Of a DNA stretch of 64,000 bases, positions 11,645-26,740 are shown piece after piece. Under the pieces are notes generated by a model that worked only from the letters and a program-made list of their open reading frames with translations, had not been told where the DNA came from and searched no databases. The DNA is from Flavobacterium hungaricum (GTDB lineage Bacteria; Bacteroidota; Bacteroidia; Flavobacteriales; Flavobacteriaceae). Numbering within the stretch: the first letter of the stretch is position 1; every line of letters starts with the position of its first letter. The DNA lies in contig NZ_PRDM01000001.1 in the NCBI RefSeq assembly GCF_015182285.1, positions 868,001 through 932,000 of the forward strand, read 5' to 3'. A program made the translations under genes and the position numbers.

Positions 11645-11670
11645 ACGCCGTCAAATTAAATTTTTGTCAG

Positions 11671-11678
11671 TATCTTTG
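11671..11678 (+). promoter_or_regulatory. -7 box of the PUL regulator gene
   Basis: TATCTTTG is a perfect TAnnTTTG box. The initiation point about 7 bp downstream leaves roughly 12 nt before the GTG at 11697. A reading frame extending to a TTG at 11664 overlaps this box and is therefore not the real start. Confidence 0.55.
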
Positions 11679-11696
11679 AATATAAATCCGAATATT

Positions 11697-14444
11697 GTGA
11701 AATCGATCCTTTATAAATTCATTTTCTTCTTTTTCATCACTTCTTTACAAATTCAGGCACAAGAATTACTCCCTTTCGTAGAAAATTACAGTAAGTCTGA
11801 TTATCAAGGAGATAACCAAGTGTGGAATGTCGCTCAAGGTAATGACGATGCGATGTACTTTGCTAATAATCATTATTTACTGAGATACGACGGTGTAAAA
11901 TGGGAAAAATACACGCTTCCTAATAAAACGATTATTCGCTCTATTTTGATCGAAGGTGATAAAATCTATTCTGGATCTTATAAAGAATTTGGTTATTGGT
12001 ATCGAAAAGACGGGAAAATGCATTATTTTTCTATTACTAAAAATCTTAGATTATTTGACGAAAGAGACAATGAAGAAATCTGGAAAATTTTTAGATTCAA
12101 CGGTTCATTGTATTTTCAGTCATTTAATGATGTTTTTATTTATAACGGAAAATCAATTCGAAAAATAAAATTTCCGTTTCTTATTTCCTATTGCTTTGCT
12201 GTAGATCAAAATCTTTACGTTGCATCTGTTCAGGATGGAATTTTTAAAATGAACGGTAAATATATTGCAAACCCAAAAGGATGGAATGTTTTAAAGCATA
12301 CTGTTGTTCATGCTATAGAGAAGTACAAAGGCAAGACTTATATATTTACGCAGAAAAAAGGAGTTTTTGTTTTTGATGGTGTAAGTTTAAAAAACTGGGA
12401 CAATCCGATAAATGAAGTTTTAAAATCGGCTACCATAAACGTTGCAAAATTTATTAAAGGTGAAAAACTTATAATAGGCACTGGAAATCGAGGTATTGTA
12501 ATTTTAGATTTAAAAACAAATCAATACAAAAATATTGAACGCGATAATGTCCTAATGAATAACTCAATTCTAAGTTTAGGATTTGATAAAGAAAATGATT
12601 TATGGATTGGATTAGATAATGGATTAGCGCATGTAGAGGTCAATTCTCCAATTTCTTTTTTTTATGATAATTCAGGAATATTAGGATCGGTTTATTCTGT
12701 TGCAACTGTTGATAAAGGGTATCTAATCGCTTCTAATCACGGGATTTTTGAATATAGCGCTGGAAAATTTAATATGATCCCTAATACTCAAGGACAGGGA
12801 TGGAATATTTCTTTGATAAACGGAAAATATATAATAGGACACAATGACGGTACATTTTCGTATGAAAATAATACGCTTAGTAAAATTAATGGCATAAGCG
12901 GGGGCTGGAATATGTCTAAAAGCAGTATTAATAATACCTATTTTCAATCAACTTACAGCGGTATTTTGGTTTACGATGATCCGTCAAATTTATCTCATTA
13001 TAAAATTATAAAAGATCTTGCAAAACCAATCAAATATGTAGCCCAGAATAAAAAAAATGAAATTTGGGCAGCCGATAATTATCGAGGATTGTACAGGGTT
13101 TTGCTAGATGATAATTACAATACTTTAAAAGTTGAAAATGTCACGCAGCAGAGCAAAATACAAAACGATTTTGGAATCAAGATTTTTGAATTTAGAAAAG
13201 AGATACTTTTTCTAATCAACAATTCCTGGTACACCTATAATTCGATTTCGAATAAATTAGAAGAAAATGATTTATTCAATCAAAACTTCAAAAATGTTAC
13301 CGACGTCATTTCTATTGACGAAGATCATTTTATGGTATTGCAAAATGGAATTCTATATCATATATATGCAGAAGGAAATAAATTTATCTGGAATATTATT
13401 CAGGAGAAGTATTATAAAGGAAAACTAATAAACGAAAATCTTAGAGTTTTTAAGAAAGACAAAGATTATCTTTTTAATCTCGACGATGGATTTATTTCTC
13501 TTAAGCTGGAATATGAAAACAGACAAAATTCTAAAGTTGAAATTGAAGCTTTTAGTGACAATCAACTAATACCAAACGATAGTAAAATAAAATTCAATAC
13601 CGAATTGCGTATAAATGTAATTTCGGGAATCTATGGAGCCAGCAAACCTAATTTGTTTTATAAAATAAATAAAGAAAAAGATTTTATTCCGATCTCTGAT
13701 GGATTAATTATTTTAAATAATTTAGGCAGTGGTTATCATTCCATAGAGATTTTTAAACATGATGGGGCTACGTATGATAAAGTTTCAGAATATAAATTTC
13801 GAGTAACCGAACCTTGGTATTTTTCATTCTGGATGGTCTCTCTTTATCTCCTTATTATAGGAGCTGTCTTGTTTTTTTATTACAAATGGAATAAGCTGCG
13901 ATACATGCAAAAATTAAAACTACAGGCAGAAGAATTAAAGCATCAAAGAGAAATTCTGGAAATGGAATTGAAAAAAGAAAATGAACTTAACATTCAGGAA
14001 TACGAAAAACACATTTTAGAATTAGAATTACAGACAAAATCCTCAGAGGTTGCCGGAAAATCGCTGTCCATAGCCAAGCAAAGTGAAATGATCGAAAAAA
14101 TTCAAGGTATTTTGGAGAGTGAAAAAGATTTCAGCAGACTTAAAAGCGAAATTAAGAAAGCAATCAAAATAAATGAAGTAAATAAGCACGAATGGGAAAC
14201 TTTTGAAACCAATTTGAATCAAATTCATAACGAGTTTATTATTAATCTCTCTAAAAAATATCCTCATCTTACGCCAAAAGATCTAAAATTGTGTGTTTAT
14301 CTCAAAATGAACCTTTCTTCTAAAGAAATTGCACCTTTAATGAATATTTCATTTAGAGGTGTAGAATTACATCGATATCGTCTAAGAAAGAAATTAAATC
14401 TAACTCAAGAAGAAAACCTGTCCAAGTTTTTATTAACTCTGTAA
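11697..14444 (+). CDS. Membrane-tethered PUL regulator: sensor propeller, membrane helix, LuxR-type HTH
   Basis: I place the start at GTG 11697, which gives a good signal peptide (VKSILYKFIFFFFITSLQIQAQ) and about 915 residues. The exported part is a two-component-regulator-type beta-propeller of repeated blades (for example NNHYLLRYDGVKWEKY, GIFKMNGKY, GLDNGLAHVEVNSPISFFYD), followed by a Y_Y_Y-like beta-sandwich. One membrane helix (FSFWMVSLYLLIIGAVLFFY) leads into a coiled coil and a C-terminal HTH (LTPKDLKLCVYLKMNLSSKE...RGVELHRYRLRKKLNL). There is no histidine kinase or receiver domain, so signal and DNA binding sit on one membrane protein. It precedes susC/susD and most likely senses the oligosaccharide in the periplasm and activates the locus. 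Confidence 0.85.
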   Translation: MKSILYKFIFFFFITSLQIQAQELLPFVENYSKSDYQGDNQVWNVAQGNDDAMYFANNHYLLRYDGVKWEKYTLPNKTIIRSILIEGDKIYSGSYKEFGYWYRKDGKMHYFSITKNLRLFDERDNEEIWKIFRFNGSLYFQSFNDVFIYNGKSIRKIKFPFLISYCFAVDQNLYVASVQDGIFKMNGKYIANPKGWNVLKHTVVHAIEKYKGKTYIFTQKKGVFVFDGVSLKNWDNPINEVLKSATINVAKFIKGEKLIIGTGNRGIVILDLKTNQYKNIERDNVLMNNSILSLGFDKENDLWIGLDNGLAHVEVNSPISFFYDNSGILGSVYSVATVDKGYLIASNHGIFEYSAGKFNMIPNTQGQGWNISLINGKYIIGHNDGTFSYENNTLSKINGISGGWNMSKSSINNTYFQSTYSGILVYDDPSNLSHYKIIKDLAKPIKYVAQNKKNEIWAADNYRGLYRVLLDDNYNTLKVENVTQQSKIQNDFGIKIFEFRKEILFLINNSWYTYNSISNKLEENDLFNQNFKNVTDVISIDEDHFMVLQNGILYHIYAEGNKFIWNIIQEKYYKGKLINENLRVFKKDKDYLFNLDDGFISLKLEYENRQNSKVEIEAFSDNQLIPNDSKIKFNTELRINVISGIYGASKPNLFYKINKEKDFIPISDGLIILNNLGSGYHSIEIFKHDGATYDKVSEYKFRVTEPWYFSFWMVSLYLLIIGAVLFFYYKWNKLRYMQKLKLQAEELKHQREILEMELKKENELNIQEYEKHILELELQTKSSEVAGKSLSIAKQSEMIEKIQGILESEKDFSRLKSEIKKAIKINEVNKHEWETFETNLNQIHNEFIINLSKKYPHLTPKDLKLCVYLKMNLSSKEIAPLMNISFRGVELHRYRLRKKLNLTQEENLSKFLLTL

Positions 14445-14688: not shown

Positions 14689-17600
14689 ATGAAAAATTTT
14701 ATTTTTAGCTTTTTAGCGCTCTTGCTGCTGCCAGCTTATATGTCTGGGCAAGCAATCAAAGGAAAAGTAGTAGACAGTAGTGGAATGGGAGTTCCAGGTG
14801 CAATAGTTTCTGCACCAGAATCCAGGGCCACGGCTGATGCTGATTTCGACGGAAATTTTACAATCAATGCCAAAGTGGGCGAAATGATCAAAATCTCTAT
14901 GTTAGGTTTTGACTCAGTTACAGTTCCTGCAACCGCTGCACCAATGACCATAACTTTAAAAGAATCAGAAGATACTGCTTTAAAAGAGGTAGTAGTTATT
15001 GGGTATGGTACCAGAAAGAAAATTGATAATACTTCGGCTGTAAGCTCAATCAAGTCGGAAGAAATTACTAAAATGAAGGTTGTAAATGCTTCTCAAGCCA
15101 TTCAAGGTAAAGCGGCTGGTGTTCAAGTTGCTACATCTGATGCACCTGGCAGTACGCCTTCTATTGTAATTAGAGGGGTTGGTACCGCTTTAGGAGGTAG
15201 AAATCCTTTATATGTAGTTGACGGAATGCCAACTGATAACATTAATAATATCAATACAAATGATATTACATCATATGAAGTTTTAAAAGATGCCTCAGCA
15301 CTTGCTATTTATGGTACTAGAGGAGCAAATGGTGTTATCATGATTACTACTAAAACAGGTAAAGGAAAACTTGTTGTTGATATTGATAGCTACGCTGGAT
15401 TTAGATCGCCTTTAAAGAAAGTTAGAATGGCGAATGCTGATCAATATATTCAATATAATAATGCAGCATTTATTAGTCAATTTCCAGCTGGAAGATTTTC
15501 TGCAAACCAGCAATACAATACCAATTGGTTTGATGAAATAACAAGAACAGGAGTGTATACTCAAAATAATGTATCTCTTTCTGGATCGTCTGAAAATATT
15601 AAATATTTTTTTAGTGTAGGTAATTACGAAGAAGAAGGTATTTTGAAAGGTACAGAATATGGACGTACTACTTTTAGAAGTAATAACGAATATAAAATTT
15701 CAGACAAACTTAAAATTAGTCAAAATTTTAGTGTTAGTTCTATAAAAAATACACCGCAGCCAATGTCTGCATTCACATCAGCTTACAGACAATCTCCTTT
15801 AGTTTCTGTACGTTATCCTGACGGAAAATATGGTGTGCCGTTTATTGCAAATGGAGTTGTAGGTGAAACTGGTGACTCTTTTAACTCAGTTGGTAACCCT
15901 GTTGTTGCTTTAGATTATAATAATGAAGAGCAAAAAACGGTCATGATTCAAGGAGGATTAAGACTAGATTGGGATATCATGAAATCATTGAAATTTACTT
16001 CACAATTTAACGGAGAATATTTCACATACAAACAATACAATTTCGTTGATAATTTAGGTCTTTGGCTGGCTGCTGATCCAACTAGAGTAGAATCAGGCTA
16101 TGATAAAAAGAGTTTGAATACAAATACATTGACTAGAAATACAGATGATTATTTCAACTGGAATTTATCTAACTACTTTACATATAATAAAGTTTTTGGA
16201 GAGATTCATGATGTTGAAGTTACTGCTGGTATTGAAGCTAACGTGATAGGTGTTAGATCAAAAACTACTGCAGATGTAAAGAATGTAAATCCAAATAGTA
16301 ATTATTGGGCACTTGATGGAGTAGCTTATGCACAAAACGGAGGTGTAACCAATTACAAAGCTGTAAATGAAAACGAAGCTACATTAGCATCGTATTTTGC
16401 TCGTTTTCAATACAAATTAAAGGATAGATATTTAGTAACAGGAACTGTAAGACGTGACGGATCTTCGAACTATTCAAGCGATTACCGTTGGGGAACATTC
16501 CCATCATTTGGTATTGGATGGATTGTAACCAAAGAAAGTTTCTTATCAGATGTAAAAGGTTTAGATTTATTAAAACTTAGAGGTTCTTGGGGTAAATTAG
16601 GAAACCAAAAAGTACCACTAAACATTCAATCATTTACATCTGGAGTAGATTATAATGGTGGTTCAGGAACTACAATTAATTCTCAGATTGACCCAAGTTT
16701 ATCATGGGAAATTGTAGAAGAAGCATCAGCAGGTTTAGATGTTGAGTTGTTTAACAGCAGATTAAAAGGATCATTTGATGTTTATAGCAAAAACACTAAC
16801 AATGCAATTTTAAATGTTACACCTTACTCAACTTCAGGGATTACTTTAGAATCTCCAACACATGTAGGAGAAGTATCTAATAAAGGTTACGAAATTGCTT
16901 TACGTTGGGACGATAAAATTACAGATAACTTAAGTTACTGGGTTGGGGGGAACTTCTCTCATAACAAAAATGAATTAGCTAGTTTAAAAAATGTTAGACT
17001 TGCAACTATAAATGGAGGTTCATTAGGTAATGGCCAGGTTACAAAAATACTGGATAATACATCAGTAGGACAGCCTTTAGGTAGTTTCTATATGTATGAA
17101 TATGCAGGTGTTGATCCAGCAAATGGACAGATGTTGTACTACACAGCAGACGGAAATAGAGTTGCTCAAGGTGCTTTAGATCAAACTAAAGATAGAAAAT
17201 ACGTAGGTTCGGTTTTACCAACTTCTACTTATGGAGTTACTTTAGGATTAAATTACAAGAACATTGACTTCTCTGTAGATGGATACGGCACAGGAGGAGC
17301 GAAAGTATATAATGGAAAAAAAGCACAGCGTTTTTATGGAGAAAATGTAGAAACTTCTTTATTAAATGATATGTGGACAACACCAGGCCAGGCAGCGTCA
17401 AACCCAGCACCATTTAATCAGGTTCCAGTAGCATCAACCTACTATTTAGAATCGGGAGATTTCTTCAGAATCAATAACATCACTTTAGGATATAAACTTC
17501 CTTTAAGAGAAGAAGGCTTTATTAACTATTGCAGAATTTATGTAAATGCTATGAACCCTTTCATTAGTCAAAAATTTTCAGGATTCTCACCTGAGGTTTT

Positions 17601-17697
17601 AGGAGATGGAGAATTAGTTAAAGGTACTCAAGGAGTTGAGTTAGATGCTTATCCAGCGTTAAAAACATTTGTAGTGGGTGCAAACTTAAAATTTTAA
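14689..17697 (+). CDS. SusC/RagA-type TonB-dependent outer-membrane transporter
   Basis: This 1002-residue outer-membrane importer takes up oligosaccharides together with its SusD lid, powered by TonB-ExbBD. It has a signal peptide (MKNFIFSFLALLLLPAYMSGQ), a carboxypeptidase-regulatory-like N-terminal extension (residues 22-95, GKVVDSSGMGVPGAIV), the SusC hallmark TonB-box region LKEVVVIGYGTRKKIDNTSA near 97-116, a plug domain (IVIRGVGTALGGRNPLYVVD, DASALAIYGTRGANGVIMIT) and a long beta-barrel ending TFVVGANLKF. The start is the ATG at 14689. susD follows after 4 bp, so they are co-translated partners. The neighbouring glucanase suggests beta-1,2-gluco-oligosaccharides as cargo. Confidence 0.96.
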   Translation: MKNFIFSFLALLLLPAYMSGQAIKGKVVDSSGMGVPGAIVSAPESRATADADFDGNFTINAKVGEMIKISMLGFDSVTVPATAAPMTITLKESEDTALKEVVVIGYGTRKKIDNTSAVSSIKSEEITKMKVVNASQAIQGKAAGVQVATSDAPGSTPSIVIRGVGTALGGRNPLYVVDGMPTDNINNINTNDITSYEVLKDASALAIYGTRGANGVIMITTKTGKGKLVVDIDSYAGFRSPLKKVRMANADQYIQYNNAAFISQFPAGRFSANQQYNTNWFDEITRTGVYTQNNVSLSGSSENIKYFFSVGNYEEEGILKGTEYGRTTFRSNNEYKISDKLKISQNFSVSSIKNTPQPMSAFTSAYRQSPLVSVRYPDGKYGVPFIANGVVGETGDSFNSVGNPVVALDYNNEEQKTVMIQGGLRLDWDIMKSLKFTSQFNGEYFTYKQYNFVDNLGLWLAADPTRVESGYDKKSLNTNTLTRNTDDYFNWNLSNYFTYNKVFGEIHDVEVTAGIEANVIGVRSKTTADVKNVNPNSNYWALDGVAYAQNGGVTNYKAVNENEATLASYFARFQYKLKDRYLVTGTVRRDGSSNYSSDYRWGTFPSFGIGWIVTKESFLSDVKGLDLLKLRGSWGKLGNQKVPLNIQSFTSGVDYNGGSGTTINSQIDPSLSWEIVEEASAGLDVELFNSRLKGSFDVYSKNTNNAILNVTPYSTSGITLESPTHVGEVSNKGYEIALRWDDKITDNLSYWVGGNFSHNKNELASLKNVRLATINGGSLGNGQVTKILDNTSVGQPLGSFYMYEYAGVDPANGQMLYYTADGNRVAQGALDQTKDRKYVGSVLPTSTYGVTLGLNYKNIDFSVDGYGTGGAKVYNGKKAQRFYGENVETSLLNDMWTTPGQAASNPAPFNQVPVASTYYLESGDFFRINNITLGYKLPLREEGFINYCRIYVNAMNPFISQKFSGFSPEVLGDGELVKGTQGVELDAYPALKTFVVGANLKF

Positions 17698-17701
17698 TAT
17701 T

Positions 17702-19180
17702 ATGAAAAAGTTATATATATCACTTTTTGTACTTTCTGGATTGTTTGTGTCAGGATGTTCAGAGGATTTTTTAGAAGTAGATCAAACAAAAAACATACCG
17801 GCAGATCCTGCATTGGTTAATAGCGATGCAGGTGCAACCTCAATGGTTGATGCAATTTATAATATATTTTTATCTTGGGATATGTCTTCTTTTGCATGGA
17901 ACGGAGTTACCAGTATTATGACTGACGATGCAGACAAAGGATCAGATCCAGGAGATACAGGTACAGATAAAGATGTTCTGGATGCTTTAACTTTTAATTC
18001 TTCTACGCCATCATTCAGCAGTATTTGGAATTATAATTATGCAGGAATCAATAGAGCAAATCAGGCTTTAGCAATGTTACCAAAGCTTGATCAAGTAAGT
18101 CCATCTTTAAAAACAAGATTAGAAGGAGAAGCAAAATTTTTAAGAGCTTTTATGTATTTTACTTTGTTGAAAGGATATGGAGGAGTTCCAATTGTAGATC
18201 ATTTACCAATTCCTGGAAATCAAAATGACATAAACATGCAGTTGATCCGTAAAACTCCAGCGGAAGTTTATGCTTTTATCGAACAAGACTTAAATGACGC
18301 CGTGCAGGCATTACCATTAAAATCTTCATATAGTGGTTCTGATGTTGTACGTGCATCTCAAGGTTCAGCCTATGCTTTATTAGCGAAAGTTAATTTATAC
18401 CAGAAAAAATGGCAAAACGTGATTGACAATTGTGATAAAGTAACGGGTTACTCTTTGGTTTCAGATTACTCTTTACAGTATAAAAAAGAAGGAGAATTTG
18501 GTCCAGAATCTATCTTTGAAATTAATGGAATTGGAGGAACTTCTTCTCCAGGATACGGAATCGGAAATTATACAGTTTCTCAAGCGCCTAGAGGTGCTGG
18601 AGGATGGGGCTGGGGTTTCAACACACCTAGTCAAGGTTTAGCAGATGCATACGAAGCAGGAGATGTTAGAAGAGCGGCTACTATTATTTTTAGAGGTTCT
18701 ACTTTATATGACGGAACAGTTGTGGCAGCTACAGTTTCTAACCCAATGTACAATTATAAAGCGTATTCATCAGCTTTTTACAATCAAGAGTTTACAGATA
18801 CAAACCTGAGATATTTGCGTTATGCTGAAGTATTATTAATGAAAGCGGAAGCGTTAAATGAATTAGGACAAACTGCCGCTGCGATTCCTTTGATCAATCA
18901 GATTAGACACAGAGCTAATCTTGGCGACACTCCAGCAGTATCTCAAACAGATGTTAGAAAAGCAATCTATAAAGAAAGAAGATTAGAAATGGCTTTTGAG
19001 CATGACAGATGGTTTGATCTTGTAAGAACTGGTCAGGCTGAAGCAGCTATGAAAGCAGATGTAAGTCCAACTTTCCCTAACGGAAAAACTTTTATAGTTG
19101 GTAAACATGAGTTATACCCAATTCCAGCTACAGTTGTGCAGCAATCAGGAGGGATAACAGCTCAGAACCCTGGTTATTAA
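17702..19180 (+). CDS. SusD/RagB-type surface glycan-binding lipoprotein
   Basis: This 492-residue lipoprotein (LFVSGCSEDFLEVDQT; Cys at residue 19, followed by the acidic SED surface-export signal) is the lid of the SusC transporter and binds the oligosaccharide at the cell surface. The alpha-helical TPR-type scaffold is visible (NRANQALAMLPKL, GEAKFLRAFMYFTLLKGYGG, LAKVNLYQKKWQNVIDNCDK), and the C-terminal SusD signature is LRYAEVLLMKAEALNELGQT...INQIRHRANL, then YKERRLEMAFEHDRWFDLVR. It follows susC by 4 bp. A terminator-like hairpin after the stop may lower expression of the downstream enzymes relative to susCD. Confidence 0.96.
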   Translation: MKKLYISLFVLSGLFVSGCSEDFLEVDQTKNIPADPALVNSDAGATSMVDAIYNIFLSWDMSSFAWNGVTSIMTDDADKGSDPGDTGTDKDVLDALTFNSSTPSFSSIWNYNYAGINRANQALAMLPKLDQVSPSLKTRLEGEAKFLRAFMYFTLLKGYGGVPIVDHLPIPGNQNDINMQLIRKTPAEVYAFIEQDLNDAVQALPLKSSYSGSDVVRASQGSAYALLAKVNLYQKKWQNVIDNCDKVTGYSLVSDYSLQYKKEGEFGPESIFEINGIGGTSSPGYGIGNYTVSQAPRGAGGWGWGFNTPSQGLADAYEAGDVRRAATIIFRGSTLYDGTVVAATVSNPMYNYKAYSSAFYNQEFTDTNLRYLRYAEVLLMKAEALNELGQTAAAIPLINQIRHRANLGDTPAVSQTDVRKAIYKERRLEMAFEHDRWFDLVRTGQAEAAMKADVSPTFPNGKTFIVGKHELYPIPATVVQQSGGITAQNPGY

Positions 19181-19195
19181 TTAAAATCTTTTAAA

Positions 19196-19234
19196 AAAAT
19201 CACTTCCTTCAATCTGGAGGAAGTGATTTTAATT
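19196..19234 (+). terminator. Hairpin between susD and the GH144 gene
   Basis: AAAATCACTTCCT pairs with AGGAAGTGATTTT around a 9-nt loop, followed by T-rich sequence. It lies inside the PUL, 16 bp after susD, and could act as an attenuating (partial) terminator or a processing/stability hairpin that sets the susCD-to-enzyme ratio. Confidence 0.7.
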
Positions 19235-19256
19235 TCAATATAATAAAAACAAAGAC

Positions 19257-20624
19257 ATGATTAGATTTTCACTTTTAGTACTTTCATTTGCTTTTTTAAG
19301 CTGTGGTTCTAAGGAACAAAATCAAAATGAAGAGGATAATACAAAACCTTCTATAGAGAAATTAACAGATGAACAGCTTTTAGATGTTGTTCAAAAACAA
19401 ACTTTCAAATATTTCTGGGATTATGCTGAACCTAATTCAGGATTGGCAAGAGAACGTTACCATCCAGACGGAAATTATCCTGAAAATGATGCCAATATTG
19501 TAACAACAGGAGGTTCAGGATTTGGACTTATGGCTTTAGTTGCAGGAATAGACAGAGGTTATGTTTCTAAGGAAGAAGGTGTAAAAAGATTGGATAAAAT
19601 TGCAGATTTCCTTGCAAAAGCAGATCGCTTTCACGGAGCGTGGTCACACTGGATTGATGGAAATACCGGAAAGGTAAAACCTTTTGGGACTAAAGATAAT
19701 GGAGGAGATTTAGTCGAAACATCATTTTTAGTTTCAGGATTTATTACGGTTCGAGAATATCTTAAAACAGGTAATGAAAATGAGAAAGCCGTAGCGGCAA
19801 AATACGATGCACTTTGGAAAGGTGTTGATTGGCAATGGTATACCAATAACAAAAATGTACTGTATTGGCACTGGTCTCCAAGTTATGCATGGCAGATGAA
19901 TTTTCCTTTAGAAGGTTATAATGAATGTTTAATAACTTATGTCTTAGCAGCATCTTCGCCAACACATACAATTGATGCAAAAGCATATCACGAGGGATGG
20001 GCGAGAAGCGGTGCTATTGTTTCTTCAAAAACAAAATACAATTTACCTCTGATTTTAAAACATAATGGGGCTGAAGAATTTGGCGGGCCATTATTCTGGG
20101 CGCACTATTCTTATGTAGGTTTAGATCCAAATCAGTTGAGCGATAAATATGCTGACTATTGGAATTTAAATGTTAATCAGACGAAAATCAACTATCAGTA
20201 TTGTGTAGAAAATCCAAAAAATGGTTACAGTGCCGATTATTGGGGCTTAACCGCATCTTATTCTAGAAATCCTGACGGATCGATCGGTTACAATGCACAC
20301 ATGCCGAGTAATGATCAGGGAGTGATGTCTCCAACGGCTGCAATAAGCTCGATTGTTTATACACCAAAAGAATCTATGGCTGTAATTCGCAATTTATATG
20401 ATAATCACAAACAAGAAACGTGGGGTAACGCAGGTTTTTATGATGCTTTGAGTTTACAAAATAAATGGGTTGCAAAACGTTATTTAGCAATCGATCAGGG
20501 ACCAGAAGTAGTGATGATTGAAAATTACCGTTCAGGCTTATTATGGAAATTGTTCATGAATGCTCCTGAAGTAAAAGAAGGTTTAACAAAACTTGGATTT
20601 AAATCGGGTAAATACGGAATCTAA
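19257..20624 (+). CDS. GH144-type endo-beta-1,2-glucanase (glucoamylase-like lipoprotein)
   Basis: This 455-residue lipoprotein (LLVLSFAFLSCGSKEQNQ) belongs to the Glycoamylase-like family (PF10091, GH144). Characterised Bacteroidota members, such as the Chitinophaga enzyme, are endo-beta-1,2-glucanases that cut beta-1,2-glucan to sophoro-oligosaccharides. The (alpha/alpha)6 barrel signatures are clear: QTFKYFWDYAEPNSGLARER (about residues 44-63), TTGGSGFGLMALVAGIDRGY, DLVETSFLVSGFITVREYL, YGGPLFWAHYSYVGLDP-like EFGGPLFWAHYSYVGLDPN, NGYSADYWGLTASYSR, and the C-terminal IENYRSGLLWKLFM. The lipid anchor suggests it works at the surface or in the periplasm. The substrate is inferred from the family. 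The next gene begins 9 bp downstream. Confidence 0.85.
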   Translation: MIRFSLLVLSFAFLSCGSKEQNQNEEDNTKPSIEKLTDEQLLDVVQKQTFKYFWDYAEPNSGLARERYHPDGNYPENDANIVTTGGSGFGLMALVAGIDRGYVSKEEGVKRLDKIADFLAKADRFHGAWSHWIDGNTGKVKPFGTKDNGGDLVETSFLVSGFITVREYLKTGNENEKAVAAKYDALWKGVDWQWYTNNKNVLYWHWSPSYAWQMNFPLEGYNECLITYVLAASSPTHTIDAKAYHEGWARSGAIVSSKTKYNLPLILKHNGAEEFGGPLFWAHYSYVGLDPNQLSDKYADYWNLNVNQTKINYQYCVENPKNGYSADYWGLTASYSRNPDGSIGYNAHMPSNDQGVMSPTAAISSIVYTPKESMAVIRNLYDNHKQETWGNAGFYDALSLQNKWVAKRYLAIDQGPEVVMIENYRSGLLWKLFMNAPEVKEGLTKLGFKSGKYGI

Positions 20625-20632
20625 ATTTTAAA

Positions 20633-21346
20633 ATGAAAAAGAAACTATTCTTCTTAATGTTGCTTTTTTCTGGTTTTGGTTTTGCTCAGACTGAGACAAC
20701 AGGAAAAATAAAAACAGTTGTGATGAGCAATTTTGAATTAGGTTATGTCTTGCACAAACCTATGAATACAAAAGAAAAAAAGCCATTAATTGTTTTTATT
20801 TCTGGAGACGGAGAAAAAGGAACCGATTTAGAGAAAGTCAAAATTAACGGTCCTTTAAAATACTTAAAAACTCATGCATTAGACGCATATGTTTTGGCTC
20901 CTCAATGTAAAGAAGATGAAAATTGGGATATAGAATCGATTTATCAATTGATTTTAAAAATCCAAAAAGAAAATAAAATAGATGCTGACAGAATTTACGT
21001 TACAGGCTTAAGTTCTGGAGGCTGGGCAGCTTGGAATTTGGCTTTTTCACATCCTGATCTATTTGCCGCAAACGTACCTGTTGCTGGTTTTGTAGATTTA
21101 ATTGAATTAGAAAAAACTTGTGAAATAGCCAATATTCCAACGCGAATTTTTCATGGACTGCTCGACGATGTAGTAAATGTTAAATATGCAATAACGATTT
21201 ACAAAGAATTAAAAAAATGCAATGCCAAAGATGTGCAGTTAACCATTTTTGATGATGCAAATCATGACAGCTGGACGAGAGTGTATGACAACGCAGCAAT
21301 CTATGACTGGATGTTACAGCAGAGAAAAACAAAAACAAATCAATAA
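20633..21346 (+). CDS. Secreted alpha/beta-hydrolase (esterase/prolyl-oligopeptidase-like)
   Basis: This 237-residue exported protein (signal peptide MKKKLFFLMLLFSGFGFAQ) has an alpha/beta-hydrolase fold: strand PLIVFISGDG, nucleophile elbow YVTGLSSGGWAAWNLAF with Ser127 in GLSSG, the acid in HGLLDDVVNV, and the histidine in FDDANHDSW. It resembles the dienelactone-hydrolase/feruloyl-esterase-like phospholipase group often found in polysaccharide loci. It lies between the GH144 and GH3 genes. An attractive role is removal of acyl (succinyl or acetyl) groups from the glucan, but the substrate cannot be read from sequence. Confidence 0.75.
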   Translation: MKKKLFFLMLLFSGFGFAQTETTGKIKTVVMSNFELGYVLHKPMNTKEKKPLIVFISGDGEKGTDLEKVKINGPLKYLKTHALDAYVLAPQCKEDENWDIESIYQLILKIQKENKIDADRIYVTGLSSGGWAAWNLAFSHPDLFAANVPVAGFVDLIELEKTCEIANIPTRIFHGLLDDVVNVKYAITIYKELKKCNAKDVQLTIFDDANHDSWTRVYDNAAIYDWMLQQRKTKTNQ

Positions 21347-21356
21347 ATTATAATGA

Positions 21357-21400
21357 AATCGCTTTGATTCCAAATTAAAGTAAAATCAAGAAAAGCGATT
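21357..21400 (+). other. Intercistronic hairpin within the PUL
   Basis: AATCGCTT (21357-21364) pairs with AAGCGATT (21393-21400), helped by a GATT/AATC extension with bulges. No T-run follows, so it is more likely an mRNA processing or stability element than a terminator. It separates the esterase and GH3 genes. Confidence 0.45.
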
Positions 21401-21429
21401 CCTGTTACATTAAAACAAACACTAAAAAC

Positions 21430-23730
21430 ATGAAAAACAAATTAGTCTTACTTTTTTTAGGATGTGCTGTTTTGGGTTATGCTCAGAAGAAAACGACTAA
21501 AAATACAGTGAAAATTAAACCAAAGTCTGAATTTGTGGCGGAATTAATGTCAAAAATGACTTTAGACGAGAAATTGGGTCAGTTAAACCTGCCGACATCT
21601 GGTGATATTACCACAGGGCAGGCAAACAGCTCAAATGTGGCAAAAAATATTGCTGAAGGTAAAGTGGGAGGTTTGTTCAACATTAAATCTGTTCAAAAGA
21701 TTAAGGAAGTACAAAAAATTGCAGTTGAACAAAGCCGATTAAAAATTCCATTACTGTTTGGTATGGACGTTATTCACGGTTACGAAACTACATTCCCAAT
21801 TCCATTAGGATTATCTTGTACGTGGGACATGGGCTTAATTGAAAGAAGTGCGCAGATTGCAGCCCAGGAAGCAAGTGCAGACGGAATCAACTGGACTTTC
21901 TCTCCAATGGTTGATATCTCTCGTGATCCAAGATGGGGAAGAGTTTCTGAAGGTTCAGGTGAAGATCCTTATTTAGGAAGCCAGATTGCAAAAGCAATGG
22001 TTAATGGATACCAGCAGCGTGATCTTTCTAAAAACAATTCGATTTTAGCTTGTGTAAAACACTTTGCATTATACGGAGCACCAGAAGGCGGACGTGATTA
22101 CAATACAGTTGATATGAGTCATATTAGAATGTTCAACGATTATTTTCCTCCTTACAAAGCAGCTGTTGATGCTGGTGTAGGTTCTGTAATGGCTTCGTTC
22201 AACGAAGTTGACGGAATTCCTGCAACAGGAAACAAATGGTTGATGACTGATGTTTTAAGAAAACAATGGGGCTTTAAAGGTTTTGTAGTAACCGATTTTA
22301 CTGGAATTCCAGAAATGATCGAACACGGAATGGGTAATCTTCAAGATGTTTCGGCTTTAGCATTAAATGCAGGAGTTGAAATGGATATGGTTGGAGAAGG
22401 TTTCTTAGGTACTTTAAAAAAATCTTTGGATGAAAAAAGAGTAACTATGGCAACAATTGATAATGCTGTTAAACTTATTTTGGAAGCAAAATACGATTTA
22501 GGTTTATTTCAGGATCCATACAAATATTGCGACGAAAAAAGAGCGAAAACAGAAATCTTTACTGCAGCAAGCAGAAAAGAGGCACGTCAGATTGCAGCAC
22601 AATCACTGGTTTTATTAAAAAATCAAAACCAGCTTTTACCTCTTAAAAAATCGGGTACAATTGCACTTATCGGACCATTAGCAGATGCTAAAGAAAACAT
22701 GCCGGGAACTTGGTCTGTAGCGACTAAAATGGAAAATGCAGTTTCATTATTGGCTGGGATCAAAGAAGTTGCAGGAAAAGGAACTAAAGTTTTGTATGCA
22801 AAAGGAAGCAACTTAGATTATGATGAAACTTTTGAAACTAATGCAACCATGTTTGGTAAAACGTTACACCGTGATGCACGTTCAAAAGAAGAATTATTAG
22901 CAGAAGCTTTAAAAGTGGCGAATCAGTCTGATGTTATTGTGGCAGCTCTTGGAGAATCTGCAGAAATGAGCGGAGAATCTAGCAGCCGTACAAATCTTGA
23001 AATTCCACAAGCACAAAAAGATTTATTAAATGCTTTATTAAAAACAGGAAAACCTGTTGTTTTAGTATTGTTTGACGGACGTCCTTTGGTAATTACGGAC
23101 GAAGAAAAAACAGTTCCTGCAATTTTAAATGCTTGGTTCGCTGGTACAGAAGCAGGTTACGCAATTGCTGATGTTTTATTTGGAGATGTAAACCCTTCTG
23201 GGAAATTAACATCAACTTTCCCAAGAAGCGTTGGTCAGCTGCCAATTTATTACGCACACAAAAATACAGGAAGACCACTTTCTAATACAGAAGGAAAATT
23301 CGAAAAATTCAGATCAAACTATATTGACGAAAGAAACGAGCCATTATTTCCATTCGGTTTTGGATTAAGTTACACAACTTTTGATTATTCAAACTTGAAA
23401 ATTTCTGCTGATAAAATGAATTTCTCAGGAAAATTAAAAGTAACAGTTGATGTAACCAACACAGGAAATTTTGACGGAAAAGAAACCGTTCAATTATACA
23501 TTAGAGACTTAGTTGGATCTGTAACAAGACCAGTTAGAGAATTAAAAGGTTTCCAAAAAATAACACTTAAAAAAGGTGAAAAACAAACCGTAAGTTTTGA
23601 CATTACGGTTGAAGATTTAAAATTTTATAACTCTGACTTACAATTTATTGCAGAGCCTGGACAGTTTGATATTTTCGTTGGAGGAAATTCAGCTGCCGAC
23701 AAGAAAGTTAGTTTTGAATTAACTAAATAG
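21430..23730 (+). CDS. GH3 beta-glucosidase (BglX-like)
   Basis: This 766-residue exported enzyme (signal peptide MKNKLVLLFLGCAVLGYAQ) is a three-domain GH3: a TIM barrel (about residues 40-350; IPLLFGMDVIHGYETTFPIP, WTFSPMVDISRDPRWGRVSE), an (alpha/beta)6 sandwich (about 385-600) and a C-terminal fibronectin-III-like domain (about 660-766; VTVDVTNTGNFDGKETVQLY). The nucleophile is Asp289 in GFVVTDFTG. GH3 exo-enzymes release glucose from the non-reducing ends; in beta-1,2-glucan loci of Bacteroides a GH3 enzyme acts on sophoro-oligosaccharides. That specificity is inferred from the GH144 neighbour. Confidence 0.93.
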   Translation: MKNKLVLLFLGCAVLGYAQKKTTKNTVKIKPKSEFVAELMSKMTLDEKLGQLNLPTSGDITTGQANSSNVAKNIAEGKVGGLFNIKSVQKIKEVQKIAVEQSRLKIPLLFGMDVIHGYETTFPIPLGLSCTWDMGLIERSAQIAAQEASADGINWTFSPMVDISRDPRWGRVSEGSGEDPYLGSQIAKAMVNGYQQRDLSKNNSILACVKHFALYGAPEGGRDYNTVDMSHIRMFNDYFPPYKAAVDAGVGSVMASFNEVDGIPATGNKWLMTDVLRKQWGFKGFVVTDFTGIPEMIEHGMGNLQDVSALALNAGVEMDMVGEGFLGTLKKSLDEKRVTMATIDNAVKLILEAKYDLGLFQDPYKYCDEKRAKTEIFTAASRKEARQIAAQSLVLLKNQNQLLPLKKSGTIALIGPLADAKENMPGTWSVATKMENAVSLLAGIKEVAGKGTKVLYAKGSNLDYDETFETNATMFGKTLHRDARSKEELLAEALKVANQSDVIVAALGESAEMSGESSSRTNLEIPQAQKDLLNALLKTGKPVVLVLFDGRPLVITDEEKTVPAILNAWFAGTEAGYAIADVLFGDVNPSGKLTSTFPRSVGQLPIYYAHKNTGRPLSNTEGKFEKFRSNYIDERNEPLFPFGFGLSYTTFDYSNLKISADKMNFSGKLKVTVDVTNTGNFDGKETVQLYIRDLVGSVTRPVRELKGFQKITLKKGEKQTVSFDITVEDLKFYNSDLQFIAEPGQFDIFVGGNSAADKKVSFELTK

Positions 23731-23751
23731 TTGGTTTATTGGTTAGTAATT

Positions 23752-23784
23752 AGCCCTTCGTTCTGGTTGACGAAGGGCTTTTTT
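23752..23784 (+). terminator. Terminator after the GH3 gene
   Basis: AGCCCTTCGT pairs with ACGAAGGGCT around TCTGGTTG, followed by T6. It closes the susC-to-GH3 unit, so the phosphodiesterase and GH43-like genes may have a separate promoter or depend on read-through. Confidence 0.85.
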
Positions 23785-23840
23785 ACTAAAATTAAAACCG
23801 TAATATATTATTCTGCAATAATTATCAAACCAAATGTATT

Positions 23841-24620
23841 ATGAATACTTTTAAAATAGTTCGTTTTGGCTCCTTTTTACTAACTGCAGTTTTGTTTTCA
23901 TCTTGTTGTACACAAAATGGAATAGTAGCTCACAGAGGTGCGTGGAAAAAAAACAATCTTCCCGAAAATTCTATTGCAGCGCTTAGACATGCAATTGATT
24001 TAAAACTTCCAGGTTCAGAATTTGATGTTTGGCGTACCGCAGATGATTCTCTTGTAATCAATCATGACGCACATTATAACAAACTGCTGATTGAGCATAC
24101 AAATTATGCAGATCTGATAAAGTTTAAACTATCGAATGGCGAAAAACTGCCTACTTTACACGAATACATCTCAGAAGGAATTAAAAATAACAAACATACT
24201 TTGTTGGTCTGCGAAATTAAGCCTTCGGAAGTCAGTAAAGAAAGAGGAAAAGAAACAGCCGTAAAAGCGGTTGCAGTTATTAAAAAACTGAAAGCCGATA
24301 AAAATACTTGTTACATTAGTTTTGATTATGACATCTTAAAACAAATTAGAGCTATAGACGCCAAAACTTCACTGCAATATCTAGAAGGAAATAAAACTCC
24401 AAAAGAAGTAAAAACAGATAATATTAATGGCGTTGACTATCATTATTCTGTCTTTAAAAAACATCCAGAATGGATTAAAGAAGCAAAAGAAAACAAAGTA
24501 ATTCTAAATGCTTGGACAGTAAATGAAGCAGCAGATATGGATTGGATTATTGAACAGAAATTCAATTATATCACAACAAATGAACCTGAACTTTTAAAAG
24601 AACGATTACAGAAGAAATAA
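23841..24620 (+). CDS. Glycerophosphodiester phosphodiesterase, exported
   Basis: This 259-residue GDPD-family TIM barrel hydrolyses glycerophosphodiesters to sn-glycerol-3-phosphate (or glycerol) and an alcohol. The catalytic and metal residues are in place: His31-Arg32 in VAHRGAW, Glu60 and Asp62 in SEFDVW, His75 in VINHDAHYN. The C-terminal barrel repeats are AWTVNEAADMDWIIEQKFNY and ITTNEPELL. The N-terminus (LLTAVLFSSCCTQNG) is a signal with a lipobox-like cysteine at 22 or 23. Its place in a beta-1,2-glucan locus is notable because osmoregulated periplasmic glucans of Proteobacteria carry phosphoglycerol; this enzyme could strip it. The alternative is general phospholipid head-group scavenging. 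Confidence 0.92.
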   Translation: MNTFKIVRFGSFLLTAVLFSSCCTQNGIVAHRGAWKKNNLPENSIAALRHAIDLKLPGSEFDVWRTADDSLVINHDAHYNKLLIEHTNYADLIKFKLSNGEKLPTLHEYISEGIKNNKHTLLVCEIKPSEVSKERGKETAVKAVAVIKKLKADKNTCYISFDYDILKQIRAIDAKTSLQYLEGNKTPKEVKTDNINGVDYHYSVFKKHPEWIKEAKENKVILNAWTVNEAADMDWIIEQKFNYITTNEPELLKERLQKK

Positions 24621-24651
24621 TTCTTTTAAATCTTCCAAACAAAATCAAATC

Positions 24652-26574
24652 ATGAAAAAAATATATACACATCTGACTGTTCCAGTTTTGTTATTGATCC
24701 TTTTCAGTAACTCTATTCTGGCTCAAAATGCAATTGGCAAAACAGAGTGGTTTGACCCCGGTAAACCAGCCAGAACTTATTGTAATCCGATTAATATCGG
24801 TTATAATTATACCACTCACAATCACAACAGAATTCCCGAATCTCGCCGTTCCAGCGCAGATCCTGTTATCATTACCTACAAAGGCGAATATTATTTGTTT
24901 GCAACCAATCAAGCAGGTTTCTTTTGGAGTAAAGACATGTCAGACTGGAACTTTGTTTACGGAAGTTTTCAGAGAGAACCTGGTGACGACGATCAATGTG
25001 CTCCAGCGGCTTGGGTTGTAAATGATACTTTGTTTTATGTGGGCTCAACTTGGAAGAGAGACCATCCTATCTGGAAAACAGCCGATCCAAAATCAGGAAG
25101 ATGGACAAGACACGTAGACAAAGCAATGCTGCCAACTTGGGATCCTGCCATTTTTCAGGACGATGATAAAAAAGTTTACATGTACTACGGATCAAGCGGC
25201 AAATTACCGCTCGTTGGTGTTGAGGTAGATTACAATACATGGCTTCCAAAAGGAAATCAAGCTGATTATGCGCAATTGTACAGAGCCACAGAAGTTGAAG
25301 ACATTCAGCGTCCGTACGGGCAGATTAAAGAAGTTGCTGTTTTAGAACCTTCAGAGCATGGCTGGGAACGTTTTGGACCAAATAATGATATGGAACCTGC
25401 GCCTTGGGGAAATTTTATCGAGGGAGCCTGGATGACCAAACACAACGGAAAATATTACATGCAGTATGGCGCGCCTGCGACCGAATTTAAAGGATATGCC
25501 AATGGTGTTCATGTAGGAGACAATCCGTTAGGGCCGTTTACCTACCAAAAACACAACCCAATGTCTTATAAACCGGGCGGATTTGTAATTGGAGCTGGGC
25601 ACGGAAATACTTTTGCAGATAACTATGGTAATTATTGGAATACTGGAACTTGTAAAATATCTATTAAAGACCGTTTTGAGCGTCGTATCGATATGTTTCC
25701 GGCAGGATTTGACAAAGACGATGTTATGTATTCTATAACCTCTTATGGAGATTTCCCGATCGTATTGCCGACTGCAGCAAGAAATCAGGAAAATGGCGCT
25801 TCATCAGGATGGATGTTACTTTCTTATAAAAAAACAGTAACCGTTTCTTCTTCAGAAGAATGTATGGAAGTAGAAACCCATAGAATGGATAACGGAGGTA
25901 AAAAAGTATATGAGAAATTCTGTTATGGAGCCGAAAATTTGACAGATGAAAATATTCAAACCTATTGGTCAGCTAAAACTGCAAATCCGGGAGAATGGCT
26001 TCAAATGGATTTAGGACGAAAAATGCAGATTAATGCTTTACAGATTAATTATGCAGATCATAAAGCTACACAGTATAATAAAGCGATGGATATATATTAT
26101 CAATATAAAATATTCATGTCTGACGATGCTGTAAATTGGAAATTGGTAGTAGATAAATCTCGAAACGATAAAGATGCTCCTCACGATTATGTGGAGCTTT
26201 CAAAACCAATTGAAGCCAGATACATCAAAATGGAAAACATTCACAATGCTTCGGGCTTATTTGCTATTTCAGATTTTAGAGTATTTGGAAATGGACTACA
26301 GGCAAAACCAAAAGCAGTTGCGGCTTTTAAAGTGGATCGCAGCAAAACAGATTCTCGTAACGCCATGATTTCTTGGAAGAAACAAACTGATGCTGTAGGT
26401 TATCATATTTATTACGGAATTGCGCCTGATAAATTATACAACAGTATTATGGTTTATGGAGACACTGCATACGATTTTAGAGGTTTGGATAAAGGAACAA
26501 AATACTTCTTTACCATTGAAGCTTTTAATGAAAATGGCATTGGAACAAAAAATAAGATTATTGAAGTAAAATAG
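24652..26574 (+). CDS. GH43-like glycoside hydrolase with discoidin and fibronectin-III domains
   Basis: This 640-residue exported protein (signal peptide ending ILAQN) has an N-terminal five-bladed propeller of the GH43/GH117 clan. The likely catalytic triad is Asp70 (SSADPVI), Asp164 (TWDPAIFQDDD) and Glu257 (NFIEGAWMTKHNGKYYMQYG). It is followed by a discoidin (F5/8 type C) carbohydrate-binding-like domain (about residues 425-550; GAENLTDENIQTYWSAK, EARYIKMENIHN) and a fibronectin-III domain (about 560-640; YHIYYGIAPDKLYN). The subfamily and substrate are not determinable by eye. Adjacency (31 bp after the phosphodiesterase) suggests it removes a further sugar substituent from the same glycan. 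Confidence 0.8.
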   Translation: MKKIYTHLTVPVLLLILFSNSILAQNAIGKTEWFDPGKPARTYCNPINIGYNYTTHNHNRIPESRRSSADPVIITYKGEYYLFATNQAGFFWSKDMSDWNFVYGSFQREPGDDDQCAPAAWVVNDTLFYVGSTWKRDHPIWKTADPKSGRWTRHVDKAMLPTWDPAIFQDDDKKVYMYYGSSGKLPLVGVEVDYNTWLPKGNQADYAQLYRATEVEDIQRPYGQIKEVAVLEPSEHGWERFGPNNDMEPAPWGNFIEGAWMTKHNGKYYMQYGAPATEFKGYANGVHVGDNPLGPFTYQKHNPMSYKPGGFVIGAGHGNTFADNYGNYWNTGTCKISIKDRFERRIDMFPAGFDKDDVMYSITSYGDFPIVLPTAARNQENGASSGWMLLSYKKTVTVSSSEECMEVETHRMDNGGKKVYEKFCYGAENLTDENIQTYWSAKTANPGEWLQMDLGRKMQINALQINYADHKATQYNKAMDIYYQYKIFMSDDAVNWKLVVDKSRNDKDAPHDYVELSKPIEARYIKMENIHNASGLFAISDFRVFGNGLQAKPKAVAAFKVDRSKTDSRNAMISWKKQTDAVGYHIYYGIAPDKLYNSIMVYGDTAYDFRGLDKGTKYFFTIEAFNENGIGTKNKIIEVK

Positions 26575-26596: not shown

Positions 26597-26642
26597 AAAC
26601 TCTAATTATAAACTAACAGGTTTGTAATTAGAGTTTTTTTTT
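26597..26642 (+). terminator. Terminator at the end of the PUL
   Basis: AAACTCTAATTA pairs with TAATTAGAGTTT around a 16-nt loop, followed by a run of T. It marks the downstream limit of the carbohydrate locus. Confidence 0.8.
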
Positions 26643-26740
26643 GAGAAAGGATATGCAAAAACGCTGACAATTCTGTAGAATTTTTGTTTCTTTGTGAAAT
26701 AAGCCAAGAAATTGGAAAAACCCAAAATGCTAAAAAAACT

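Follow-up and report, generated by a model that had tools for sequence, protein, structure and literature searches.

A putative beta-1,2-glucan utilization locus of Flavobacterium hungaricum with a linked glycerophosphodiester phosphodiesterase

The window considered here is a stretch of 64,000 nucleotides from Flavobacterium hungaricum (contig NZ_PRDM01000001.1, positions 868,001 to 932,000), and all coordinates are given within it. Genes of a polysaccharide utilization locus (PUL) occupy positions 14689-26574, all on the + strand, with open reading frames and coordinates that match an earlier note on this DNA. The gene content read in that note was borne out by profile matches and is thus directly established. 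It comprises, in order, a SusC-type TonB-dependent transporter (14689..17697; TIGR04056, 726 bits; Plug, PF07715), a SusD-type glycan-binding lipoprotein (17702..19180; PF07980, PF14322), a GH144-like endo-beta-1,2-glucanase, a lipoprotein with a lipobox-like cysteine (19257..20624; PF10091, 1.4e-76), an exported alpha/beta-hydrolase esterase with the sequence GLSSG (20633..21346; PF00326, PF02230), a BglX-like GH3 beta-glucosidase (21430..23730; PF00933/PF01915; NF011678 BglX, 969 bits), an exported PUL-type glycerophosphodiester phosphodiesterase (GDPD) with a lipobox-like C22 (23841..24620; PF03009, 3.5e-23) and a GH43-like enzyme, also exported, which bears F5/8 (discoidin) and fn3 domains (24652..26574; PF04616, 5.2e-17; PF00754; PF00041). 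A SusC/SusD pair thus stands with linked CAZymes on one strand, as the definition of a PUL has it. Catalytic residues are intact in the alignments of all four enzymes checked (GH144, esterase, GDPD and GH43). The gene set is not a chance one, since SusC, SusD, GH144, GH3, GDPD and GH43 occur together in 79 of the 80 loci from a scan for the GDPD; the esterase is also found, in 71 of these 79 when open frames are considered and in 62 of 78 by gene picks.

To this picture we add a LuxR-type regulator (11664..14444, + strand; profile match to the C-terminal HTH, PF00196), which belongs to the locus and likely controls it. It was present in all of the Flavobacterium loci examined, 20/20 without and 20/20 with the GDPD; these were hand-picked, mostly on long contigs, from 86 GDPD-lacking and 50 GDPD-bearing genomes respectively. 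An M28 peptidase (26684-28132) was considered as a further member and rejected: it occurs in 74 of the 79 loci from the GDPD scan, yet in none of 80 loci outside the genus, and it is also cut off from the PUL by a hairpin with a 14 bp stem and T8 lying 3' of the GH43 gene (26600..26633, + strand). Two further hairpins lie on the + strand within the PUL, one between SusD and GH144 with a short T-rich tail (19197..19229), a possible attenuator, and a terminator-like one with an 11 bp stem and T5 between GH3 and GDPD (23752..23779). Such a terminator-like hairpin was found in 71 of 100 GH3-GDPD gaps, as against 14 of 500 mononucleotide shuffles. The GDPD and GH43 genes probably form a short transcription unit of their own after the main operon, the T8 hairpin being its likely end. 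Overall, neither sigma-70-like sites (41 found, 51.9 expected) nor terminator-like sites (8 found, 8.3 expected) exceeded the shuffles, and a scan of seven gaps turned up no exact copy of the Flavobacterium promoter motif TTG-N17-23-TANNTTTG.

The sole PF10091 match in the genome is the GH144 protein of this locus. It matches the Chitinophaga enzyme CpSGL (PDB 5gzh/5gzk; E 4e-185/1.5e-185) end to end, over residues 13-450 (14-450 for 5gzh), and its D147, D151, E154 and E223, present in 112/112 sequences, align with D135, D139, E142 and E211 of CpSGL. The GH3 enzyme has its PDB matches in 3u48 (1185 bits) and 5xxl (1102 bits), the latter of which we take to be BT_3567. The four CpSGL residues are catalytic, and the glucanases assayed in its clan share specificity for beta-1,2-glucan, as described in an extract of PMC12102758; the beta-glucosidase of the Bacteroides thetaiotaomicron beta-1,2-glucanase cluster acts on longer beta-1,2-glucooligosaccharides (PMC8861115, in part). 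The end-to-end match to CpSGL and the closeness of the GH3 to 5xxl support the proposal, made in the earlier note, that this is a PUL for beta-1,2-glucan. It is improbable that the locus is directed instead at a plant or algal polymer such as hemicellulose or cellulose. This would suit the beta-glucosidases, xylosidases and arabinofuranosidases in families GH3 and GH43, and a putative PUL of Flavobacterium IR1 (PAM95095-90), which by its description resembles the present locus in having a glycoamylase, a GH3, a GDPD and a GH43 enzyme and is upregulated in a moeA mutant, has been read as serving cellulose/hemicellulose degradation, in a text where the term GH144 is absent (PMC12758843). Against it stand the whole-length match to CpSGL, catalytic residues included, and the common specificity of the assayed clan members. 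Metabolism of the cell's own osmoregulated periplasmic glucan (OPG) was also set aside as a function; the genome has no match to OpgG (PF04349), the only OPG marker searched, so that one marker of OPG synthesis is absent.

The catalytic positions of the GDPD, GH43 and esterase were presumed from family knowledge. Those of the GDPD (H31, E60, D62, H75, E125 and K127) are each found in 108 or 109 of 109 aligned sequences, the single miss being a gap, and the intact catalytic set that had been noted earlier for this GDPD is confirmed by this invariance. The protein scores 83.4 bits against PF03009 (cut-off 23.6), and has the fold, the two histidines and the metal-ligand set of the family; in fold and catalytic residues it is like GDPDs of the GlpQ/UgpQ type. 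Its PDB matches are 7ww4/7wwc (E 1.7e-70) and 3no3 (E 5e-47), and the same three entries are the best Foldseek matches of the predicted model (pLDDT 78.8). The closest solved domain, 50% identical, is that of a Pedobacter terrae GDPD-GH16-type fusion (7ww4/7wwc), which differs in that the GDPD lies inside a multidomain beta-1,3(4)-glucanase; the structures have no accompanying publication according to the part of PMC12448869 consulted. Export was judged by eye and with a simple lipobox pattern, without a signal-peptide program. The pattern fits 54 of 98 GDPDs and is weak because it also fits 96 of 99 GH3 proteins. Lipoprotein export depends on acidic residues after the lipobox cysteine; there is none at positions +2 to +7 in 47 of the 54 matching GDPDs, while relatives of SusD have 2.8 on average after the cysteine. 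The scarcity behind the GDPD cysteine is fitting for an enzyme that would face the periplasm.

We infer from these genes a substrate, an order of steps, a localisation and a role for the GDPD, as follows. The locus would serve the use of other bacteria's beta-1,2-glucan, cyclic or linear OPG, with the GDPD stripping phosphoglycerol, a reading to which we give a probability of about 0.55. GH144 would cleave the glucan at the cell surface and the oligosaccharides would enter via SusC/SusD; a periplasmic GDPD would then take glycerophosphate off glucose C6, using, as GDPDs in general do, the glycerol hydroxyl adjoining the phosphate. This would keep the exo-acting GH3 unblocked, so that it could release glucose as the last step; the removal of other groups would fall to the esterase and GH43. 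The phosphoglycerol on OPG has sn-1 stereochemistry, which may be unsuited to some GDPDs. The chemistry needed for the substituent role exists, because the cyclic beta-1,2-glucan of Sinorhizobium meliloti carries phosphoglycerol or succinyl at C6 (PMC7569799, in part), and removal of phosphoglycerol is the best reading of what the GDPD does. To speak of a complete route, as had been proposed, is nevertheless too strong, as it leaves out of account what GH43 does, where the released glycerol phosphate goes and how cyclic or branched glucans are handled. Periplasmic beta-1,2-glucans matter in symbiosis and virulence, and we know of no described recycler of their substituted forms in soil. A GDPD dedicated to a glycan, if this is what it is, would add a new type to the tailoring enzymes and could be used to prepare glucans of defined structure.

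The GDPD might alternatively, within a beta-1,2-glucan PUL, act on a different phosphodiester, carried by the glucan itself or by a polymer that occurs with it, for example a glycan with glycerol-phosphate or phosphodiester bridges, as opposed to OPG phosphoglycerol. The GDPD subfamily does occur in loci without a beta-1,2-glucanase, and its substrate is to that extent untied from this glucan: one member (L262) is fused to GH16 and adjoins GH16, GH30 and a PF03372 protein, another (L265) adjoins GH2 in a locus that also holds GH20, and two (L269, L270) stand, as judged by eye, among glycosyltransferase-like genes. Both GH43 and the esterase also hint at a substrate of higher complexity than plain OPG. 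On the other hand, the sections of PMC7569799 and PMC10514313 consulted report phosphoglycerol as the phosphodiester group on bacterial beta-1,2-glucans, with phosphoethanolamine in addition in E. coli, and we consider this alternative unlikely, though a serious one.

The esterase triad (S127, D178, H211) is found in 33/33 aligned sequences; the nearest PDB entries are 3doh and 4q82, and the best match (E 5e-23) is an esterase. The family is a generic alpha/beta-hydrolase one, with matches in 47 of 54 GH144-positive and 49 of 145 GH144-negative genomes of the bacterial family. Outside the genus the esterase slot is filled in 30 of 40 family loci by open frames (25 of 40 by gene picks), mostly by distant proteins of about 40-70 bits. 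With a generic family, mostly distant extra-genus esterases and nothing that points to succinate, the succinyl-removing role proposed in the earlier note is weakly indicated. In GH43, D70, D164 and E257 are present in 61/61 aligned sequences; its predicted model (pLDDT 48.6) was too poor to show the five-bladed propeller of the family and was left unused.

Linkage of both the GDPD and GH43 to GH144 is observed directly. A GDPD orthologue at least 74% identical occurs in 50 of 136 GH144-positive but in only 1 of 163 GH144-negative Flavobacterium genomes, and lies 2.5-3.3 kb from GH144 in all 50; Fisher values for contrasts of this sort take no account of how closely the genomes are related. The order GH3-GDPD-GH43 is found in 95 of 98 loci, a set that overlaps the 50 genomes (the locus sets L082-L101 and L182-L261 share 12 GH3 sequences). 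The association is thus supported as real and conserved within Flavobacterium. Other loci were searched with phmmer (window protein as query, E 1e-4) over about 10 kb either side of GH144, in some less, such that more distant GDPDs or other genes could escape. Outside the genus, 40 of the 50 family genomes with a GH144 match over the cut-off were covered, and a GDPD was found in 0/40 loci; beyond the family, among hand-picked loci from 28 of 34 order/class and 12 of 48 phylum genomes with a match, it was missing from 27/28 and 12/12, or 39 of 40. The expectation that other GH144 loci would also hold a GDPD was borne out within Flavobacterium (50/136 against 1/163) and for the most part failed outside it (0/40 in the family, 1/40 beyond). 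The GDPD is a clade-specific addition, mostly of one inheritance, rather than a component of some general route, because it is missing from these loci, because a close one was not found in 86 of the 136 genus genomes, and because its presence changes few times, four on each of two gene trees. The exception (L158), from another family, reads SusC-SusD-LamG-GH144-GDPD-GH27 on one strand, with the GDPD frame opening at most 4 bp downstream of that of GH144. It falls outside the Flavobacterium GH144 clade on a long and unsure branch; starred branches in the trees that include it force at least two label changes, which may be one gain and one loss.

Mostly single inheritance would also suit a commonplace GDPD, one that scavenges phosphorus or the head groups of phospholipids and whose gene was fixed beside the PUL and handed down by descent. 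GDPDs are common, ours lie mostly in a single clade, the terminator-like hairpin may give the gene its own unit, and one close orthologue can stand alone, since it is flanked by unrelated genes on a 6.6 kb contig (L281, the reverse complement of L256). Yet the GDPD shares its unit with GH43, which is GH144-associated across the family (27/54 GH144-positive genomes against 2/145 GH144-negative), it is kept at the locus though the SusC, SusD and GH144 alleles differ widely, a second GDPD nearer the Pfam model exists elsewhere in the genome, and L158 is a further GH144-GDPD case. We therefore hold a scavenger to be quite unlikely. In a tree without GlpQ, the clade of glycan-locus GDPDs excludes most of the Flavobacterium GDPDs that are encoded elsewhere.

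Relative to the GH144 PULs of B. thetaiotaomicron and Chitinophaga (CpSGL), with which it shares a SusC/SusD-GH144-GH3 arrangement and the GH144 catalytic residues, the present locus adds the esterase, GH43-discoidin and GDPD. Marine GH144 PULs likewise have the GH144 core and a decoration enzyme, there a sulfatase and here the GDPD (PMC6499787, in part). In Bacteroides xylanisolvens, SusC/SusD and GH144 are accompanied by another locus-specific glycosidase, a GH35 beta-1,2-galactosidase in place of the GDPD, which according to the portion of PMC11739564 consulted did not attack beta-1,2-glucooligosaccharides; this cautions against assuming that whatever is encoded beside GH144 has the glucan as its substrate. 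A comparable pattern, new in this analysis, was found in loci without the GDPD. A GH97 alpha-glucosidase is often carried at the locus, in 44 of 80 GDPD-lacking Flavobacterium genomes (of 86, six being dropped whose completeness was low or whose GH144 was weak or a fragment), and in 1 of 97 GDPD loci. Open frames with a sulfatase motif were counted in 19 of 40 family loci of other genera, in none of 39 genus loci and in a single one of 78 loci from the GDPD scan; all five checked by Pfam (four from family loci, one from L237) matched PF00884. Strict exclusion between GDPD and GH97 was rejected: L245 has both, and with 3-4 independent tree contrasts a sign test is not significant. These accessory genes look like an exchangeable module for removing decorations. 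As a tentative and rather doubtful generalization, the GH144 loci of Bacteroidota could combine a shared core with a module mirroring the glucan eaten (GDPD for phosphoglycerol, GH97 for alpha-linked glucose, sulfatase where a marine glucan is sulfated), and the GDPDs could form a distinct glycan-tailoring subfamily spread over PULs of several kinds. If this holds, the genes present would indicate on whose periplasmic glucans, among its neighbours, a given Flavobacterium lives. Setting the GDPD loci beside those with GH97 or a sulfatase makes conjecture about a single PUL into a rule that can be tested. The target of GH97 is perhaps the alpha-1,6 link in the cyclised glucans of Xanthomonas, Ralstonia and Rhodobacter.

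The locus at 14689–26574 had been read in the earlier note as a polysaccharide-utilisation locus (PUL) for the phosphoglycerol- and acyl-decorated beta-1,2-glucan of another bacterium's periplasm, and our own reading of the open frames, all on the forward strand, bears out its coordinates. It comprises SusC (14689–17697), SusD (17702–19180), a GH144-like protein (19257–20624), an esterase (20633–21346), GH3 (21430–23730), a glycerophosphodiester phosphodiesterase (GDPD; 23841–24620) and a GH43-discoidin protein (24652–26574), each with the expected Pfam or NCBIfam domains. SusC is preceded by a LuxR-type regulator (11664–14444), which is present in 40/40 genus loci examined. The catalytic residues tested in GH144, the esterase, GDPD and GH43 are all there and are essentially invariant across the relatives compared. 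The locus is genuine and conserved, a variation on an established type of PUL, and its putative phosphoglycerol-removing step is plausible.

Residues 13–450 of the GH144 protein, the sole PF10091 match in its own genome, align to CpSGL, the Chitinophaga endo-beta-1,2-glucanase (E 4e-185 and 1.5e-185 for PDB 5gzh and 5gzk), and its E223, D147, D151 and E154 are the counterparts of E211, D135, D139 and E142, named for CpSGL in PMC12102758. The GH3 protein is BglX-like (969 bits). Among the solved structures nearest to it is 5xxl (1102 bits), which we take to be BT_3567, encoded in a beta-1,2-glucanase cluster; 3u48 and 5tf0 score as high or higher, so the substrate could not be settled by GH3 on its own. 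A cluster of this kind is mentioned in PMC8861115.

The association of GDPD with GH144 is real, but few events lie behind it: in the regulator and GH3 trees, with 41 rows apiece, four changes of GDPD state are required. Among 299 genomes of the genus (own genome counted in both totals), PF10091 is matched in 136 and a GDPD sharing 74% identity or more with that of the window occurs in 51; the latter is found in 50/136 GH144-positive versus 1/163 GH144-negative genomes (Fisher p 6e-19, kinship ignored), and in those 50 it shares a contig with GH144, 2489–3345 bp apart. The remaining GDPD, in a genome that is 62% complete (G494), is truly apart from the GH3 and GH43 there, as it lies between unrelated genes on a 6.6 kb contig. 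That contig is also the exception among 80 loci from a GDPD scan of named genomes, labelled Flavobacterium, Flavobacteriaceae or [Flexibacter], of which 79 contain SusC, SusD, GH144, GH3, GDPD and GH43. The order GH3-GDPD-GH43 is kept in 20/20 and 75/78 loci. The expectation that GDPD would recur in other GH144 loci held within the genus and largely failed beyond it, with GDPD in 0/40 loci from other genera of the family, 1/28 at order or class level and 0/12 in the phylum. The 6.6 kb contig with this lone orthologue outside a PUL is L281 (the reverse complement of L256), from a metagenome-assembled Flavobacterium; the genes flanking the GDPD there are unrelated to the PUL. The overlapping GDPD-bearing sets (L082–L101 and L182–L261) carry distinct SusC, SusD and GH144 alleles at one locus (near 600 or 900 bits for GH144, roughly 490–2120 bits for SusC), while GH3, GDPD and GH43 remain close; the upstream half appears to have been swapped.

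The single order/class case with GDPD, L158, comes from another family of the class and reads SusC-SusD-LamG-GH144-GDPD-GH27 on one strand, the GDPD frame opening at most 4 bp downstream of that of GH144. In the GDPD tree, it falls outside the Flavobacterium GH144 clade, on a long branch of unsure placement. Given the starred branches, the GH144 label must change at least twice, whether by gains or by one gain followed by one loss. GDPDs from glycan loci gather in one clade (support 100/98), comprising the GH144-linked proteins, GH16 fusions (L262 by Pfam, L263 alike) and two other long fusions (L267, L268); GH16, GH30 and a PF03372 protein adjoin the fusion in L262. In these four, the GDPD domain lies within proteins of 516–532 residues inside SusC/SusD loci. 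A PF03372 phosphatase-family protein accompanies the fusion in both L262 and L267, possibly a second phospho-decorated glucan system. In L264–L266, also of this clade, GDPD adjoins an exo-glucosaminidase-like GH2, and the SusC/SusD locus includes a GH20 gene as well (by Pfam for L265, by gene starts for L264 and L266). Two further clade members (L269, L270) stand among glycosyltransferase-like and polysaccharide-synthesis-like genes, as read by eye, and perhaps act on the cell's own glycans. The solved structure nearest to the window GDPD, by sequence and by fold, is a Pedobacter GDPD-glucanase (7ww4/7wwc), for which PMC12448869 found no publication.

A phosphoglycerol at C6 would halt an exo-acting GH3, so that its removal in the periplasm would be a sensible step. 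Acidic residues after the lipobox cysteine direct Bacteroidota lipoproteins to the outside; they average 2.8 in SusD (94/94 matching the lipobox pattern), 0.94 in GH144 (84/97) and 0.13 in GDPD (54/98). By this rule, SusD and perhaps GH144 would be outside and GDPD inside, a weak reading because the pattern also fits 96/99 GH3 proteins. Sinorhizobium meliloti glucans carry phosphoglycerol or succinyl groups on separate molecules (PMC7569799), and E. coli periplasmic glucans can bear phosphoglycerol, succinate and phosphoethanolamine (PMC10514313).

The esterase is at the locus in 30/40 family and 71/79 GDPD-scan loci (by open frames), and is matched in 47/54 GH144-positive versus 49/145 GH144-negative family genomes; a succinyl role, for which position is the sole support, is possible. 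The GH43-discoidin protein (E ≤ 1e-60) is matched in 27/54 versus 2/145. Proximity to GH144 does not imply action on the glucan: a Bacteroides xylanisolvens GH35 adjoining GH144 is described in PMC11739564 as a beta-1,2-galactosidase inactive on beta-1,2-glucooligosaccharides.

Flavobacterium loci that lack GDPD frequently encode a GH97 protein (assigned to PF10566 in the three checked) whose near relatives are alpha-glucosidases, SusB among them. It stands near GH3 or GH43 in L062, L066, L069, L070, L074, L075, L078, L080 and others. An orthologue (at least 1017 bits) occurs in 53/80 GDPD-lacking, GH144-positive genomes, within 7.5 kb of GH144 in 44/80; lower-scoring matches were linked to GH144 in 0/56, and GH97 occurs in 1/97 GDPD loci (overlapping sets). 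Mutual exclusion is taken as suggestive, because descent explains much of the pattern. Beta-1,2-glucans cyclised by an alpha-1,6 link are reported from Xanthomonas, Ralstonia and Rhodobacter (PMC11228985). A sulfatase-motif frame is present in 19/40 loci from other genera of the family, and in 0/39 genus, 1/78 GDPD-scan, 1/28 order/class and 1/12 phylum loci. For marine GH144 PULs with sulfatase, a sulfated form has already been proposed as target (PMC6499787), and a Maribacter cluster holds GH3, two GH144, SusCD and sulfatase genes (PMC8072126).

In the open-licence literature, so far as its text was accessible, we found no paper tying a GDPD to the use of beta-1,2-glucan. A glycoamylase-GH3-GDPD-GH43 PUL of Flavobacterium IR1 was upregulated and interpreted as degrading cellulose/hemicellulose (PMC12758843); from gene content alone, we infer that it corresponds to the window locus. 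Another IR1 PUL region also has a GDPD (PMC9131120).

A hairpin with a T-run lies in the GH3-GDPD gap of the window, and comparable hairpins occur in 71/100 such gaps versus 14/500 mononucleotide shuffles; across the whole stretch, terminator-like sites show no excess (8 found, 8.3 by chance). Further hairpins lie in the SusD-GH144 gap and downstream of GH43, and the GDPD-GH43 gap (31 bp) is without one. The transcription units are likely to be SusCD, GH144-esterase-GH3 and GDPD-GH43, with read-through between them possible. The long hairpin in the SusD-GH144 gap (19197–19229) possibly damps expression of the enzymes below SusCD.
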